Of a stretch of DNA of 24,119 nucleotides, positions 312 through 21,065 are shown piece by piece. How positions within the stretch are numbered: the first letter of the stretch is position 1; each line of letters starts with the position of its first letter. The position numbers were made by a program, and so were the translations under genes. The notes beneath the pieces are model-generated. The model was not told the DNA's origin. It ran no database searches and saw nothing but the letters and a program-made list of their open reading frames with translations. Source of the stretch: a virus; IMG/VR virus record IMGVR_UViG_3300009370_002356, positions 1-24,119 of that record; one strand, 5' to 3'.

Positions 312-1718
312 TTAACCAAACGCCGCTTTTTTGATATTTTGGGCGGCGTTTTGGTCACGAGAATGGTGCGCTCCACATTCGGGGCAATCCCATTCGCGAA
401 TTTCTAAATTATTTGACAATTCTGTGTTCACAAAACCACAACAAGAGCATTCTTGCGTGGTATAGGCAGGATCAACCGCAACGGCAACAACCCCCCTTAA
501 CTGAGATTTGTAATCTATTTGAGATTTAATCTTGTGGATTCCTCCAGCTAAGGCTTTTCTGTTTATGGCTTGTTTCTGTTTATTGTAAAGTTTGGGGTCA
601 TCTTGGGTCTTTTTAACTATTTGTGAAGGTTTGTAGTCTTCATATGCAATCCCGTCAAATTCATTCGTCACTTTGCTTGTAAAGTTATGTATTTGGTCAT
701 TATGGATACGAGTTTGGTGACGATGGAGCTTATTTAGGGCTGCCTTTGTCTTTTTCCAGTTGTTGGAACCTTGGGTTTGAAGGCAAAGCTTCTGTTGGAG
801 TTTAGTTATTTTCTTTTCTAGACGCTCATCCTTCGGAAAATTATAAGTATTATTTTGATCGTCAACAATATGGTCTTTAATGCCAAAGTCAAGCCCAGTG
901 GTATTCTTTGGTTTTTTGGGGGCAGTAGGGATAGATTTGGAATCGAGAGTAATCGTAAGACAAAGGTAAAATTCGTCCCCATCCCTAGCAATCTTGGCGG
1001 TTTTAGGCTCACCCATCAAGGGGCGATGGATCACCACCCTTATCTTTTCCTTGACGCCTGCAAAGTGATGGAGGGTACTGCGTTCGGGATTTGCTTCATT
1101 AATTTCTAGCTTATATTCCCCTTCATAGACTACGCCATCCTTGACAGTATTCGAGGTCGAGATAGAGTCGCCATCGCAAATATGAGTAGGGTGAACTGGA
1201 AGACGAGCGCGCTCGGACTTTTCCCATCCAAGCCCACGCTTGGTAGTCTTGGGGGCATAGTAATTGACCTTCTTCCCCTTAGTATACCACGACGATTGAA
1301 GTTCAGGATAAATATGATTAAGTGAACGCGCAGAAATTTTATTAAGGAGGTCATACGCCCAGCATTTGCCATCTTCATTCGTGTAGCGATTATTTGGCAA
1401 AGATTTATTAATAATTCGAACGCCGCCCTCCTTAAGATTTTTTACACGATAATATTTAAACTCTGGGAGGTTATCAAGCCCTACCCTGTGAGTTCTCCAT
1501 TGTGAAATTGAGGAGTTCATCTTGGGGAAATTAGGGCCACCTTTGGCGCTTTGAAATTCTGGATAGTCTTCTATATGGGCCGCAATCCTGATCATCTCAT
1601 TTTTGACCAACTGAAAAGCCTTATGCCCTTCGCACATCTGACGATACCATTCAGTGTCCAGAATATCTTGCTTGCGACTCAATGGAAGTATCCTGAATTT
1701 CTGAGTAATAGTTTTCAT
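312..1718 (-). CDS. Miniature Cas12-like RuvC nuclease (Cas12f/TnpB-related)
   Basis: RNA-guided DNA nuclease candidate of 468 residues, in the size range of TnpB and the smallest Cas12f proteins. Visible motifs, numbered from the ATG at 1718: RuvC-I GLDFG with D277; RuvC-II 'IAYEDYK' with E360; a zinc ribbon CSCC (424-427) and CPEC (445-448); RuvC-III 'RDQNAAQNI' with D455. All three catalytic acids are intact. The N-terminal ~270 residues are divergent and should hold the recognition lobe. An in-frame TTG nine bases upstream is possible, but the ATG fits the promoter (-10 ends 10 nt upstream, implying a leaderless mRNA). The gene runs straight into an ncRNA and a CRISPR array, as in type V-F/V-U loci. 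No cas1, cas2 or TnpA is visible. The exact subtype cannot be settled by eye; a TnpB ancestor newly associated with an array is the main alternative. Confidence 0.88.
   Translation of the reverse strand: MKTITQKFRILPLSRKQDILDTEWYRQMCEGHKAFQLVKNEMIRIAAHIEDYPEFQSAKGGPNFPKMNSSISQWRTHRVGLDNLPEFKYYRVKNLKEGGVRIINKSLPNNRYTNEDGKCWAYDLLNKISARSLNHIYPELQSSWYTKGKKVNYYAPKTTKRGLGWEKSERARLPVHPTHICDGDSISTSNTVKDGVVYEGEYKLEINEANPERSTLHHFAGVKEKIRVVIHRPLMGEPKTAKIARDGDEFYLCLTITLDSKSIPTAPKKPKNTTGLDFGIKDHIVDDQNNTYNFPKDERLEKKITKLQQKLCLQTQGSNNWKKTKAALNKLHRHQTRIHNDQIHNFTSKVTNEFDGIAYEDYKPSQIVKKTQDDPKLYNKQKQAINRKALAGGIHKIKSQIDYKSQLRGVVAVAVDPAYTTQECSCCGFVNTELSNNLEIREWDCPECGAHHSRDQNAAQNIKKAAFG
316..354 (-). other. Inverted repeat inside the 3' end of the Cas12-like gene
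   Basis: CCAAA-CGCCGC (316-326) pairs with GCGGCG-TTTTGG (343-354), leaving one unpaired base and a ~16-nt loop. It encodes the last residues after the RuvC-III motif and sits at the stop codon. No T-tract follows on the minus strand, so it is not an intrinsic terminator. It may be a structural or processing element of the downstream guide RNA, or a coincidence of alanine and lysine codons. Confidence 0.45.
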
Positions 1719-1728
1719 GATGGACAAC

Positions 1729-3330: not shown

Positions 3331-3516
3331 TCATCGCTGTTGCTCAAGGAATTCAAGTATCATTTTAATGGTGGCTTCGTCCTTGGTATGAATAGCCTCC
3401 CCGGAAATCAGCATGATTTTCCATAAGTCATAGCTTCTGCGCTCCTTGATGTACACAATGTTGGCGGGATTAATATAGTAGTACTCGCCCACTTTATCTT
3501 TAACTGTAAAAATCAT
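3331..3516 (-). CDS. Small conserved-looking protein, FlbD-like in shape
   Basis: 61 residues, beta-rich N-terminal half ('GEYYYINPANIVYIKE') and a helical C-terminus. The layout recalls small FlbD-type or LytTR-like proteins ('xxFYLNPxxIxxIE...'), but the match is too weak to name. The ATG overlaps the stop of the ECF sigma gene by 4 bp (ATGA), so it is translationally coupled to it. About 160 bp follow before the HNH gene with no gene that I can support. Function unknown; an accessory of the sigma factor is possible from position alone. Confidence 0.65.
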   Translation of the reverse strand: MIFTVKDKVGEYYYINPANIVYIKERRSYDLWKIMLISGEAIHTKDEATIKMILEFLEQQR

Positions 3517-4097
3517 TTTTCTTGTCTCTCTTTAATAAGCTTTTTTATTTTTTTTATTATCCTTGATTTGGCAACGGTAACATTTGTAACCTTGAATCCT
3601 GTTTTTTCTGCAATTTCATGACAATCAAAACCATCTACTAATAAATTAAAAATTATTTTCTCCTTATTTCCTAGATAATTTTCCAGTTGACGCAAGAATT
3701 CAATCCTTTCTTCTTTAATTAAGTCTGCGAACGGCGCATCGGCAAGCCAATCATAGTTAATGGGAATCGAGCCGCACCCAATAGATAATTTATAAGGATC
3801 ACTGTGGTCAATAGTTTTTGAGTTATCAAGGTGCTGAGAGAGGGTATCTTTGTATTCCGGGACATAATTTATTTTATTTCTTTGGCGCCGCTTTAGGTAT
3901 GCCTTTATTTGAAACCGAGCTATTCCGAAAATCCATGACACAAAACTCTTGGAGCTATCGTAGTCCCGCTCTTTATTAATGACGACAAGATTTGTTTCCT
4001 GTAGAACGTCATGAGCGTCAGAATGGTCAAATATTCTCGATGATATAAATTTCTTGAGTTTTGGTTGGGCGTCAGAAAGCTGGGATTGATAGCCCAT
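3513..4097 (-). CDS. ECF-type RNA polymerase sigma factor
   Basis: 194 residues. Region 2 spans about 25-73: 'DAHDVLQETNLVV' core-binding helix, then SFVSWIFGIARFQIKAYLKRRQR. Region 4 spans about 138-190 with an HTH ('CHEIAEKTGFKVTNVTVAKSRI'). The region 2 wording is close to the ECF family expanded in Planctomycetes and Verrucomicrobia (general pattern DVLQETNL...SFxxWxxGIAR), which is the best host clue in the window. It overlaps its neighbours on both sides (1 bp upstream, 4 bp downstream). It presumably redirects host RNA polymerase to phage promoters. No anti-sigma gene is recognised next to it. It may be host-derived. Confidence 0.85.
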   Translation of the reverse strand: MGYQSQLSDAQPKLKKFISSRIFDHSDAHDVLQETNLVVINKERDYDSSKSFVSWIFGIARFQIKAYLKRRQRNKINYVPEYKDTLSQHLDNSKTIDHSDPYKLSIGCGSIPINYDWLADAPFADLIKEERIEFLRQLENYLGNKEKIIFNLLVDGFDCHEIAEKTGFKVTNVTVAKSRIIKKIKKLIKERQEK

Positions 4098-12733: not shown

Positions 12734-13390
12734 TTATTTATGTACAATATGGTCAGTGTTTCCGTCTCGCGACGAATTAAAGAAATCAGTAACCATCTCA
12801 AGGTGTTGGGGGAGCTTAAAGGTATTCTCGTCAATAACTTCATCTGTGCTCGACTTGAAACGTTTTTTAATTTTATTCCTGATATCTTCTGCGATTTGGC
12901 TAATCCTCTGGTGAGTGAGACCAAATATGTTGCCGATTTCCTCGATCTTTATTCCTCGCCACATAAGACTGAATACATTTTGTTCATGTGGCGTCAACAC
13001 TGATCGGTACTTATAATAGAGGTGACTAACGGACTCTTTTGAAAATTCTTCGTCAAGATGTTCATCATTTTCTCCAACTTGCGCAGAAACAACCTCAAAT
13101 TTTTCACTATCAAAGTCTATTTTTCTGTCTTTTCTTTGCTTTTTAGAGAGATACCAAACCACTTGGTTATGTGTGAAACTAGCAACCCACTTTTTAAAAT
13201 GAGACGTCTTTACTTCTCCGTCGGAAAGGCGAAAGCGATCTCGGTGCTTCCATACATTTGTGCATACCTCTTGAAAAATTTCATCACGGTCAGCTTCGGG
13301 CGCAGAGCACTTATTGGCAATAATCACACGAATATAGCCTTCGTGTTGAGTTAGCTGGTTAAGTAATTTTTCCTCCAAGTCGGGACTCAT
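12734..13390 (-). CDS. Sigma-70/ECF-like factor (module 1)
   Basis: 218 residues. Region 2 spans about 18-75 ('DRDEIFQEVCTNVWKHRDRF', then 'FKKWVASFTHNQVVWYLSKKQRK'). Region 4 spans about 128-180 with the HTH 'IKIEEIGNIFGLTHQRISQIAEDI'. A ~40-residue C-terminal tail is extra. It starts on ATGA with the stop of the HTH protein at 13387-14472, so the two are co-translated. It probably programmes RNA polymerase for a class of phage genes. It is distinct from the ECF factor at 3513-4097 and from module 2. Confidence 0.8.
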   Translation of the reverse strand: MSPDLEEKLLNQLTQHEGYIRVIIANKCSAPEADRDEIFQEVCTNVWKHRDRFRLSDGEVKTSHFKKWVASFTHNQVVWYLSKKQRKDRKIDFDSEKFEVVSAQVGENDEHLDEEFSKESVSHLYYKYRSVLTPHEQNVFSLMWRGIKIEEIGNIFGLTHQRISQIAEDIRNKIKKRFKSSTDEVIDENTFKLPQHLEMVTDFFNSSRDGNTDHIVHK

Positions 13391-14472
13391 TTTTTCGTAG
13401 GCCTAAGGTGTGGGGGCGTAGGGTTTTGTGGTGGTGGGTATTCTTTAGCCCAATCGACATCCGTAATGTCACGCATCGCGCGCCAGAGGCAGTTGCGAGA
13501 GATTTTTAACTCTTTGGCTGCTCTAGATCGAATATTGTTGTTATTGGATAAGGCCTCAATGATTTTAGGCTTTAAGGATTTAAGCTTTTTGCTTCTTTGG
13601 CCGGCGCAGGTCTGAGATCTTTTTTCAATGGTTTCTTTTGAGAGTTTGGTGCCCAAATTCCAATGCACGCGATTTGCTAGAGTTTTTTTCATGGTAGCCC
13701 TTGCTTTGTCTATGGCCTCACGAGAGCGATGTTTTGGCCTGCCGCCAATGGGGTGCTCTTTATTCCAGTCAAAATCAGGATGCTTCTTCCACATGAGTAT
13801 CCATAAGTCTTTTTTATTCATGCCAAGGTAGCGAGCTGCGGCGGCTCTATTCCCTTTGGTTTTAATTAAGGCATTAGAAATTTCAATTCGCTGAGCTAGG
13901 CGCTCTTCTTCTGGAATTCTCTCCCAATCCACCCCAGGTCTACCCCCGGGCTTCACACGATAAAGGTGGCGCTCTTCTGGAGGTGGACGATCCGCATCGG
14001 TAACTGGATTTAGTCTTGACCAGTTCTCGTCTCCTTTTTTAAAGCCAGTCTTTTTGAGGCGTGCAAGTTCTGCGGCATCAATACGGCGATCAAAGTAACT
14101 GGTTTGGCCTGGCCTTCTGGGCTTTTCAATTAAATGAAGATGGTCGGCTACATTGGGAAAAGATATATTCCGAAAAGCCTCCCATGCCTCAATACTTAAA
14201 GATTGATTCGTGTTTCCGGGGGGGATGCGGAATTTGCTATGTATTTTATAGGTCTTGAGAGATTTTACCCTATTTTTGGGATCTTCTCTTTTTATCTTGT
14301 CGATAAGGAGTTCTTTGGCCTTGTCGCTAGAAGTGGCTCGGACGACTGTCTTAAAATCCTTTTCAGAACCATTAGCATAAATCCATGTGAAATAGGCAAA
14401 CCAATAGACATCGAAGTCGTATTTCTCTTTATTGAATTTTTTTTGGGGGTGAACCCAGTCTTTATGTGGCAT
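13387..14472 (-). CDS. Fis-like HTH DNA-binding protein, two HTH copies (module 1)
   Basis: 361 residues. The N-terminal ~150 residues align with the protein at 15634-16332: 'YW' start, Lys-rich strand pattern, 'AEL(A)xLKKxGF..G.ENWS' at 132-152. Two Fis/HTH_8-type motifs follow: GNRAAAARYLGMNKKDLW (207-224) and NNIRSRAAKELKISRNCLW (312-330), each followed by '(D)W.KE(H/Y)P'. It looks like a sequence-specific regulator, possibly an adapter or activator for the sigma-like factor coupled to it. It overlaps the preceding sigma-like gene by 11 bp. No known family name fits with confidence. Confidence 0.7.
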   Translation of the reverse strand: MPHKDWVHPQKKFNKEKYDFDVYWFAYFTWIYANGSEKDFKTVVRATSSDKAKELLIDKIKREDPKNRVKSLKTYKIHSKFRIPPGNTNQSLSIEAWEAFRNISFPNVADHLHLIEKPRRPGQTSYFDRRIDAAELARLKKTGFKKGDENWSRLNPVTDADRPPPEERHLYRVKPGGRPGVDWERIPEEERLAQRIEISNALIKTKGNRAAAARYLGMNKKDLWILMWKKHPDFDWNKEHPIGGRPKHRSREAIDKARATMKKTLANRVHWNLGTKLSKETIEKRSQTCAGQRSKKLKSLKPKIIEALSNNNNIRSRAAKELKISRNCLWRAMRDITDVDWAKEYPPPQNPTPPHLRPTKK

Positions 14473-15637
14473 AATTAGAAGTATTTGGTAATAAGTTGAG
14501 AGACTTAAACCACCTTAACTTCCCAGAAACAACAGATGTCGGGATGCGAAGCTCGGCAGCAGTCTCTTTGCACGAAAAGCCCTCTTTTAAAAACTGTAGG
14601 ATATTCTTATCTCGAGAGGTAAGTTTTTTTGGCTTAACCCCGGTATGGGGAATTTTATCGATCATTCCATTTGATAAGAGGAATTGGCATTTACGCTTTA
14701 CAAGGTAGGCGTGGCTTATGTCGAGTAATTTGGTTATTTGGTGGATGGTGTGGCCAGCGTTAACAAGCTCAATGAGCTTATCTATGTCTTCTCGGGGCCA
14801 ACCAAAAATAATCGACCTCTTAAGGTAACTAAAAACTCCCATATTCTGAGATAATCTATTGATTTGGCCCGCAGTGTATTCCCCCTCCTTAAAATGCTTG
14901 GAAATTTCTTCAGCAGTATACTTTCCTTTATTCCTCAAGATGTAATCGAGGAGCGCAGACCTATCGGCCTCGGTTATAGGATTATGCGGAGGGGTCTTTT
15001 CAAAAAATGAACGGGCACACGATAATCCGTTCGATGGAAGGGGGGAGTCTTTATAGTCAAATTTAATATTTGATCGAAGCTTTTTTGCTAATTTAATCAA
15101 TGAGATTGAGACTCCTTGGTGGGTCACTCCCAGATAGTCGGCAATTTCGTACTGATTTTTTCCCACCTCTAAAAGAGATATTATATGCAGCTCCATGGGA
15201 GTTAGGAGTTGCGAGTACTCTCGCACATACTTTAGGAAGTATTTGGCTTGATCGGATTTAAATATCTTCTTGAGCTCTTGGTCTTCGGCGCCCTCGAATT
15301 CAATTATGTAGTCAAAACTGCTTTTAAGCCCTTCGTCGGTGGAATATGTTTCGTTAAGCCTATATTTTTGCTCTTTTTTAATCTTGTAAGTCGCGGCAGA
15401 CCATTTTGTGATATTTACTGCATAACGATAGGCAATTTTAGAAAAATCGTCGTAAGAAAGATCTCCGTCCGTATTTTGGGTAATATCGTGACGCTTTTTA
15501 TAAAGAGACAAATTGACATCCGCCACAATCTCATCTAGGGTTAAAGGGTGAGAAGATTTACGGCACGCTGCCACAATAGACCTAAGATCTTGTTGGTGAT
15601 CTCTGAGGTAGCCGGCAAAAAGAGCATCTACGTTCAT
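14462..15637 (-). CDS. Sigma-like factor with extra HTH domains (module 2)
   Basis: 391 residues, far longer than an ECF factor. A divergent region 2 (about 5-95) is followed by a clear region 4 (145-190, 'LTPMELHIISLLEVGKNQYE', 'IADYLGVTHQGVSISLIKL'). Beyond residue 200 come three more HTH-like segments (about 238-262, 285-310, 348-375; e.g. 'TIHQITKLLDISHAYLV', 'SCKETAAELRIPTSVVSGKL'). It is coupled by ATGA to the HTH protein upstream and overlaps the next module by 11 bp. The extra HTHs suggest recognition of extended or upstream promoter elements, which is inference. Confidence 0.7.
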   Translation of the reverse strand: MNVDALFAGYLRDHQQDLRSIVAACRKSSHPLTLDEIVADVNLSLYKKRHDITQNTDGDLSYDDFSKIAYRYAVNITKWSAATYKIKKEQKYRLNETYSTDEGLKSSFDYIIEFEGAEDQELKKIFKSDQAKYFLKYVREYSQLLTPMELHIISLLEVGKNQYEIADYLGVTHQGVSISLIKLAKKLRSNIKFDYKDSPLPSNGLSCARSFFEKTPPHNPITEADRSALLDYILRNKGKYTAEEISKHFKEGEYTAGQINRLSQNMGVFSYLKRSIIFGWPREDIDKLIELVNAGHTIHQITKLLDISHAYLVKRKCQFLLSNGMIDKIPHTGVKPKKLTSRDKNILQFLKEGFSCKETAAELRIPTSVVSGKLRWFKSLNLLPNTSNYAT

Positions 15638-16332
15638 CTTTTATTGGACTTTCTGGGGGGGTAATCCTTTTCCCAGTTCACCTCGGCAAATTTAGAAAAA
15701 AGATGATATATTTTGTTGCGATTATAACCCAAGTAGCGAGCCGCCTCGCTCCTGCTGTTGTCGTGCTTGACTAAAGCCCTTATGAGCCTATCTTTTTCAA
15801 GAGCCCTCTCTTCTGAATCCCAGTCAACCCAAGTCCCCCTGTATATCTTATGGGCCCTTTTGTCGAGGGGGAGAGAGGTGCCTTTTCTGAATTTATGAGA
15901 CCAATTCTCTTTCCCCGGCTGAAAGCCTTTTTTCTTTAGGTCAGCCAATTGGGACGGGGAAAGACTTCTGGCCCTATAATTTACCCAAGGTACTTTAAAG
16001 AGGGTGTTGTCCGCATTCGGGAACGCAGCGCCACGAATATCATCCCAATCCTCTACAGTTAATTTCCTATTCCCGTTACGCATCATATGGTAATTTTTAT
16101 GTATCCAATAAGAATGCCCGCTAAACTTGACTTTTGAAGAGGGCATATCTTCTTTTATTTTGGAGGTAATGATCCTTTTTGCCCAATAAAGGGACTTTGC
16201 CTTTATGATGCAGCTATAAAACGACTTGGCGCCAGTATTATCTTCTATGCCAAAATTAATACTCCAGTATTGAGCAACTGGAAATCTGTAGCGCCGAGCG
16301 TCAGCTTGAGAGAACTTCTTTTTGGGAGGCAT
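15634..16332 (-). CDS. Fis-like HTH DNA-binding protein, one HTH copy (module 2)
   Basis: 232 residues, shorter paralogue of the protein at 13387-14472. It shares the N-terminal domain, the 'LADLKKKGFQPGKENWS' segment (129-145) and one Fis/HTH_8-type motif (NSRSEAARYLGYNRNKIY, 192-209) followed by 'VNWEKDYPP'. It lacks the second HTH. It is the first gene of the four-gene operon 16332-12734, behind a TTGACT promoter with a ~22-nt leader, and is coupled by ATGA to its sigma-like partner. Confidence 0.7.
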   Translation of the reverse strand: MPPKKKFSQADARRYRFPVAQYWSINFGIEDNTGAKSFYSCIIKAKSLYWAKRIITSKIKEDMPSSKVKFSGHSYWIHKNYHMMRNGNRKLTVEDWDDIRGAAFPNADNTLFKVPWVNYRARSLSPSQLADLKKKGFQPGKENWSHKFRKGTSLPLDKRAHKIYRGTWVDWDSEERALEKDRLIRALVKHDNSRSEAARYLGYNRNKIYHLFSKFAEVNWEKDYPPRKSNKR

Positions 16333-20615: not shown

Positions 20616-21013
20616 TGGTGGAGGTGGCGGGAGTTGAACCCGCGTCCTGAGACCTTCAAGCATGTACGTCTACAAGTTTAGTTAATTTTTTTTATAGTTA
20701 TGATATTAACATCCAACTACTTGTTTCAATTATTTGCAGTTTGTGACACAAGTAAACTTTTGTCTGTTTTTGCAGATAGATGACCCCTTATCCTTTTTAT
20801 CTGCGTCAAAAGGTAAGAGGTTAGCAGGTTAAGCTGCTAAGGCGAGCTTGCGGCCCTTGAAGCCGAAACGCTTCGCAGCGAGACGGTTCTTGAAACCTAA
20901 AGCTCTAACACGGTTTTTGTTGCCATGTACAACTTTGCGCCTTTTTCCGAAGCCGGGCGCCTCTTCGACTTGCAGTGCAAGAATCCAACCTCAGTCGAAT
21001 CCAGTACACCCCC
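20616..21013 (-). ncRNA. ssrA: tmRNA with an unusually long basic tag
   Basis: 398 nt. The 5' end GGGGGTG pairs with CACCTCC before an encoded ACCA. Near the 5' end is GGATTCGAC; near the 3' end a T arm GCGGG-TTCAACT-CCCGC. Pseudoknot PK1 is visible (CGAAG/CTTCG and GCGCC/GGCGC). 12 nt after it UACAU precedes a GGC resume codon (as UAGUC precedes GCA in E. coli). The reading frame (20924-20829) encodes 31 residues: GNKNRVRALGFK, then NRLAAKRFGFKGRK, then LALAA and UAA. The LALAA end is the standard protease signal, but the tag has ten Lys/Arg and no acidic residue, against ~10 residues in E. coli. It rescues stalled ribosomes; phage-borne tmRNAs are known but uncommon. Confidence 0.93.
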
Positions 21014-21036
21014 ATAAATTTTTCAAAGAACAGTTA

Positions 21037-21065
21037 ATTATCTTACGCTTAAGTAACGTTTTTAA
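21037..21065 (-). promoter_or_regulatory. Possible tmRNA promoter
   Basis: TTAAAA (21060-21065), 17-bp spacer, GATAAT (21037-21042) on the minus strand, predicting a start ~15-20 nt before the mature tmRNA 5' end, trimmed by RNase P. Weaker than the other promoters here. Confidence 0.45.

Follow-up and report, generated by a model that had tools for sequence, protein, structure and literature searches.

Why should a phage carry its own tmRNA, and what would read a tag as long and as basic as the one encoded here? The DNA analysed (hereafter the window) is an entire virus record of 24,119 bases, in which Pfam and PHROGs searches recognised a dUTPase, a dNMP kinase, a DNA methyltransferase, an HNH endonuclease, a phage-type sigma factor, UvdE and a deoxyribosyltransferase-like protein. 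Scanning of 20 window proteins brought up neither a terminase nor a capsid protein, and we call the source a phage on the basis of this gene set, its IMG/VR record and the kin contigs described below. A search with one 407-aa window protein gave no relatives. Further annotated genes were as follows:

312-1727, minus strand: TnpB/Cas12f-like protein with OrfB_IS605 and TNB domains, transposon-type, near the record end
3513-4097, 12734-13390 and 14462-15637, minus strand: three proteins with sigma-70-like or related HTH domains (Pfam/PHROGs)
13387-14472 and 15634-16332: Fis-type HTH proteins, alongside the sigma-70-like/HTH proteins

The locus that raises the question comprises:

20616-21013, minus strand: complete one-piece tmRNA (ssrA) gene, called by ARAGORN and by Rfam RF00023
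20924-20922, minus strand: resume codon GGC (ARAGORN coding part 90-185 of the gene)
20829-20924, minus strand: tag frame GNKNRVRALGFKNRLAAKRFGFKGRKLALAA, 31 codons followed by TAA, called by ARAGORN and backed by pN/pS

The RF00023 match (153.2 bits, where the gathering score is 47; E 9.2e-61) lies on the same bases as the ARAGORN tmRNA and covers positions 1-374 of the 374 in the model, as expected of a full-length member of the tmRNA family; nothing else in the window reaches an Rfam gathering score. The acceptor stem is intact, with seven pairs (GC, GC, GU, GC, GC, UA and GC) that include G3-U70, followed by ACCA. These results bear out the preliminary description of this DNA, which had reported a tmRNA with complete fold landmarks and had named a covariance-model scan beforehand as the check on the resume codon: the RF00023 alignment sets the GGC of the window opposite the consensus resume codon GCa and places the resume codon nowhere else. 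From this GGC, ARAGORN gives the same tag as that description, with 31 codons, ten Lys/Arg, no Asp/Glu and a C-terminal LALAA before TAA, whose LAA would be the part read by a Clp unfoldase if the tag acts as an ssrA-type degron. The alanine carried by a tmRNA precedes the encoded tag, so that 32 residues are expected on a tagged protein.

Over the 28 pairs, not independent of one another, that eight distinct tag sequences of 31 codons form, pN/pS was 0.20 in the GGC frame and 1.23 and 1.75 in the remaining frames, which fixes the frame without reliance on one program and rules out the other frames. A frame under protein-level constraint, with a hydrophobic end before its stop, again places the gene among tmRNAs. 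Purifying selection acts on the 31-codon tag as protein and keeps its basic sequence from drifting: net charge is +10 in 8/8 distinct 31-codon tags and reaches +11 and +12 in two longer kin tags (L002 and L032, respectively), and LALAA is present in 10/10 tags of 31-33 residues. With pN/pS at 0.20 and charge held at +10, the long basic tag proposed for this phage tmRNA is a real and conserved trait. As to how it arose, the likeness of 13/18 bases within the window tag, equalled by 89/2000 shuffles, is only a hint of a duplication of 11 codons.

Relatives were sought over viral contigs with degenerate patterns drawn from the tag and the pseudoknot region, which returned 47 stretches with a tmRNA visible in 44 (not in L048, L053 or L059). 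An exact long DNA pattern from the 3' half of the tmRNA gave no match in viral sequences; blastn of the window tmRNA against phages and plasmids recovered, among the matches listed, the conserved tRNA-like end only; and tblastn of the tag, a very short and therefore weak query, gave no match at E up to 10 in 50,697 phage records. The tags of the 44 kin contigs, which provide the comparison with other phages called for earlier, span 19-40 residues and are mostly basic, some of them acidic. Outside the window, basic tags of 31-33 residues occur at nine loci (L002, L003, L005, L008, L009, L013, L027, L032 and L050), that of L005 being identical to the window tag. Most other kin tags have 19-21 residues and range from mildly basic (GNKSRVKAFAFKKRQLALAA) to mildly acidic (AKNIVSFEDFVHSEELALAA), while L226 bears an unrelated basic tag (GLLDRFNPAKKVASRKVVTRKSVAHQVAAVA). 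At the other extreme, two kin tmRNAs with a related scaffold encode strongly acidic tags of net charge -10, one of 40 residues (L023 4550-4998, plus strand) and one of 34 (L225 1501-1911, minus strand); the ARAGORN tags for these two are shorter than our readings. Charge counts refer to a list of 33 sequences rather than to all records, repeats being left out and some hand-read tags standing outside it (e.g. L034, L035, L036, L043, L054, L057, L225, L226 and L227).

The kin phages thus retain LALAA or a near variant while tag length and charge vary; the scaffold is common to the kin tmRNAs, and the tag shifts greatly in both respects. In a tmRNA tree inferred with the tag region removed, three rows with 20-21-residue tags are nested within the long basic tags, which do not form one clade; a single origin of the long basic tags, for which this tree needs three changes at low support, was rejected. 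Two kin records show, beside the full tmRNA, a further RF00023 match of 73 bases that passes the cut-off (56.5 bits; G115:41861-41933 and G129:8632-8704, both plus strand); it is either a tRNA or a tmRNA of which the tRNA-like portion alone is present. The preliminary description had foreseen neither the 20-residue and acidic kin tags nor the phage ClpC-like unfoldase to which we turn below.

The window gene resembles bacterial one-piece tmRNAs in its full-length match, resume codon, tRNA-like end with G3-U70 and ALAA tag end, and departs from them in its tag, with 31 codons and a charge of +10 as against 9-13 residues and -2 to 0 in 24 tags of Bacteriovoracales. Phage-encoded ssrA is itself known: tmRNAs have been described in mycobacteriophages and phage G (PMC4131195, as far as its accessible text goes), and according to the accessible part of PMC9004378 a tmRNA is present in 402 of 18,146 phage genomes, that of phage Melnitz being two-piece, unlike the one-piece gene of the window. 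Streptomyces phages likewise carry ssrA, with tags that are short among the matches listed (ANSKFAFALAA, ANSNVASAYALAA) and unlike that of the window.

A possible reader of the tag came from the genes that accompany the kin tmRNAs. When 35 of the 44 kin records were scanned for partners, nine short contigs being left out, PF10431 (ClpB_D2-small, which marks Clp unfoldases) was found in 22/35, as against 0/21 control virus records; the controls (eight from earlier patterns and 13 from an arbitrary pattern) are shorter, at 0.77 Mb versus 3.40 Mb, so that about five Clp hits would be expected in them at the test rate, and the kin records are related and incomplete, so that the Clp counts are not independent events. 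SmpB was found in 0/35 of the same kin records and ClpP in 1/35, which implies that host partners are needed. Huge phages bearing both tmRNA and SmpB are comparable in that ribosome rescue genes sit on large phages, and they differ from the kin phages, where SmpB is missing from the 35 records and a ClpC-like unfoldase frequent (22/35), in having SmpB (PMC7162821, accessible part).

Ten complete kin Clp proteins are 794-824 residues long and have two Walker A motifs; aligned to the first of them, the others are 39-58% identical. The best PDB relatives of the one kin Clp protein searched are ClpC chains (E about 1e-191), and a [VILMF]GF loop, at a position which we take to be where ClpC and ClpA dock on ClpP, is present in 26/26 Clp proteins read, with G685 and F686 invariant in the ten aligned kin proteins. 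With two Walker A motifs, this loop and ClpC as best relatives, the kin phage proteins are of ClpC type; four of the four proteins scanned nevertheless missed the NCBIfam equivalog cut-offs for ClpA and ClpB (L119 scored 685 vs 993 for ClpA), and it is for this reason that we name them no more than "ClpC-like". They share with ClpC and ClpA two AAA+ modules, the GYVG pore loop and the ClpP loop, and differ in being phage-encoded, often beside a tmRNA, in scoring below those cut-offs and, in a second group of phages, in lacking the N-domain. An electrostatic fit of the tag to the Clp N-domain was considered and dropped, as the two charges showed no significant relation over 26 records (Spearman -0.31, P 0.12).

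The association is not universal. No Clp was found in 3/8 kin virus records with a 31-33-residue basic tag (G101, G102, of 103 kb, and G113). Nor did any of the 20 scanned proteins of the window, itself a fragment of 24 kb, belong to the Clp family, and the pair is not seen in its own phage as recovered here. In G100, which bears the exact tag of the window, Clp and tmRNA lie about 18 kb apart. By contrast with this distance, in G099 and G124, both with 31-residue basic tags, 125 and 122 bases, respectively, separate the end of the D2-small match from the tmRNA.

The reverse test started from Clp. An alignment search of viral contigs returned at least 80 loci, showing that phage Clp is not rare there, and 145/50,697 isolate phage records have a Clp match at E up to 1e-40 (tblastn, one Clp query). 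Fifty of the 80 loci were used, four being already in the first set and 26 others left out, mostly as short contigs or for a shorter Clp form. Among the matches listed, a tmRNA over the Rfam cut-off was present in 21/50 of these Clp-bearing virus records and absent from 29/50, many of which are fragments; the phage genomes surveyed in PMC9004378, for comparison, have a tmRNA in 402 of 18,146. Where both genes occur, they tend to be linked: in 20/43 records the tmRNA follows Clp on the same strand by no more than 3 kb, where 0.84 would be expected, and the linkage is seen in each set separately (10/22, expected 0.43; 10/21, expected 0.41), with 0/200,000 simulations as high. In 13/21 records of the second set, the Clp match starts beyond the N-domain. 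Here, a second phage group (L262-L268) has an N-less ClpC-like unfoldase, which the tmRNA follows at about 2.1-2.7 kb; in the seven stretches read, the Clp protein has about 670-686 residues, the loop reads VGF or IGF where the protein is shown whole (six stretches), and the tags are of another kind (GNTFAKMATLGLTREASVVAA, GDVFANLEAVGLLAAEEVVVA). The Clp-tmRNA pairing is therefore seen in two phage groups that do not share a kind of tag.

The leader of the tmRNA holds two further candidate elements:

21023-21030, minus strand: boxA-like TTCTTTGA just upstream of the tmRNA, from sequence reading
21040-21045, minus strand: possible -10 element TAAGAT, read by eye

Upstream of the kin tmRNAs the first of these, the boxA-like motif, has the form TTCTTTGA or TTCTTTAACA, and TCTTT[GA]A occurs within 45 nt of the gene in 35/39 kin sequences (L013 and L064 among them being one gene), against a base rate of 152/7800. 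The motif may point to antitermination-type control of kin tmRNA transcripts.

We infer from the sequences that the phage probably writes its own degron and that many of its kin bring a reader for it, both the degradation and the pairing being predictions. Following established knowledge of trans-translation, the host would charge the phage tmRNA with alanine during infection, and the RNA would use host SmpB to enter stalled ribosomes, where alanine followed by GNKNRVRALGFKNRLAAKRFGFKGRKLALAA would be added to the unfinished protein. The LALAA end would then be engaged and pulled by the pore of a Clp unfoldase, and the 26-residue basic part, with its net charge of +10, could act as a conserved extra handle that replaces the host-type adaptor segment and serves a phage or a host reader. 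In many kin, the phage ClpC-like unfoldase, often encoded just upstream of the tmRNA, is the putative reader of the phage tag and would feed tagged proteins to host ClpP. We put forward tentatively that this unfoldase reads the phage degron and docks on host ClpP, such that the phage would pick which stalled products, its own or those of the host, are destroyed, apart from host tags and adaptors. With the same reserve, the arrangement might amount to a private disposal line, its degron being long and basic, of 20 residues or acidic according to lineage, and its pairing present in at least two groups with unrelated tags.

A more conservative reading is that of an ordinary phage tmRNA, which would keep ribosomes moving late in infection and deliver its tag to host ClpX, ClpA or Lon; we regard this as unlikely, and find it similarly doubtful that the basic stretch is a peculiarity of the lineage that lacks a dedicated reader, and the nearby phage Clp a general chaperone or protease aid. 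The canonical LALAA end fits such a role, as do the prior descriptions of phage tmRNAs (the accessible parts of PMC4131195 and, for the 402 genomes, PMC9004378), the want of a significant correlation between tag and N-domain charge, and the Clp-bearing records without a tmRNA over the cut-off (29/50 among the matches listed, many of them fragments). This reading is at odds with the protein-level purifying selection on the 31-codon tag and with the adjacency of Clp and tmRNA in two phage groups whose tags differ.

It is less probable still that the tag is the host lineage's own, captured by the phage together with the gene. The candidate hosts come from genes beside kin tmRNAs on phage contigs: a PSCyt2/PSD1 protein (L009 688-2715, minus strand) and ORFs that are presumably DUF1501-like (L025 1-1284, L028 1-561 and L029 1604-2893, all minus strand). 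Genes of both kinds are typical of Planctomycetota and Verrucomicrobiota, which suggests hosts in the Planctomycetota-Verrucomicrobiota group and lends the capture of a host tag some plausibility. Against it, one scan for the C-terminal motif of the tag across 84,980 species genomes (the collection size stated by the tool), with a pattern that would miss the 20-residue tag type, gave ten places, one of them a tmRNA. ARAGORN called no tmRNA in any of the ten; direct reading and Rfam show the one in L013, a 47 kb contig with a basic-tag tmRNA in a MAG labelled Halobacteriovorax. Because this tmRNA has as neighbours relatives of the UvdE and deoxyribosyltransferase-like proteins of the window, we read L013 as a phage contig binned with the MAG, which has three tmRNAs in all, the other two with ordinary tags (ANNDFAPAMAA and ANNNDNFEYALAA).

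Bacteriovoracales were considered as hosts and rejected, both because this contig is phage-like and because the 24 usable tags, from 30 loci read after a search of 97 genomes, have 9-13 residues and net charges of -2 to 0 (four loci without an ARAGORN call and two calls without an alanine-rich end were left out). From the one tmRNA returned by the motif scan, the tag looks phage-borne, with the proviso that the compared genomes may not be those of the host. The earlier suggestion that the phage tag differs from that of its host accordingly stands in part: the lone tmRNA of the scan is phage-like, as this would predict, but the tags compared may not be the host's.

Relocation, the role first proposed for the basic part, would send tagged proteins to RNA, DNA or a membrane instead of to proteolysis. 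Ten Lys/Arg, no acidic residue and a charge held at +10 are what it would call for; nonetheless we judge it very improbable, given that LALAA is kept at the C-terminus of all ten tags of 31-33 residues, that the tags of L023 and L225, kin whose scaffold is related, are strongly acidic and that helical amphipathicity is not above that of shuffles (1540/2000 as high), a result that also disposed of an amphipathic helix in the tag. Least probable of all is a phage tmRNA that mainly takes up SmpB or other host tmRNA partners and so inhibits host rescue, for although the 35/35 kin records without SmpB would draw on that of the host, and the accessible part of PMC4131195 considers a TLD-only phage tmRNA in such an inhibitory role, a pure decoy needs no tag under protein-level selection.

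Returning to a phage degron with a phage reader, parts of the ssrA pathway are carried by other phages as well: Chryseobacterium phage MA9V-3 has a tmRNA and a gene annotated as ClpX about 3.8 kb apart, not linked to each other by the authors in the accessible part of PMC13120357, and Pseudomonas phage pf16 has an SspB analogue and no tmRNA in the accessible part of PMC5587285. ClpA has no occurrence in the accessible part of the Melnitz paper (PMC9004378), which puts forward the marking of host proteins for recycling as a possible role of phage tmRNA. A literature search by listed titles and the starts of abstracts, mostly among papers outside subscription, gave no tmRNA-unfoldase pair in phages. 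What is new here is that a phage tmRNA is frequently partnered by a phage unfoldase, the phage tmRNA itself being already known. The conserved tag and, in kin phages, the often adjacent unfoldase with its ClpP-docking loop make the question of why phages carry tmRNA a testable one. If the phage unfoldase prefers the phage tag, the two would form a degron-reader pair that evolved apart from that of the host and, if so, a natural source of orthogonal degradation tags.
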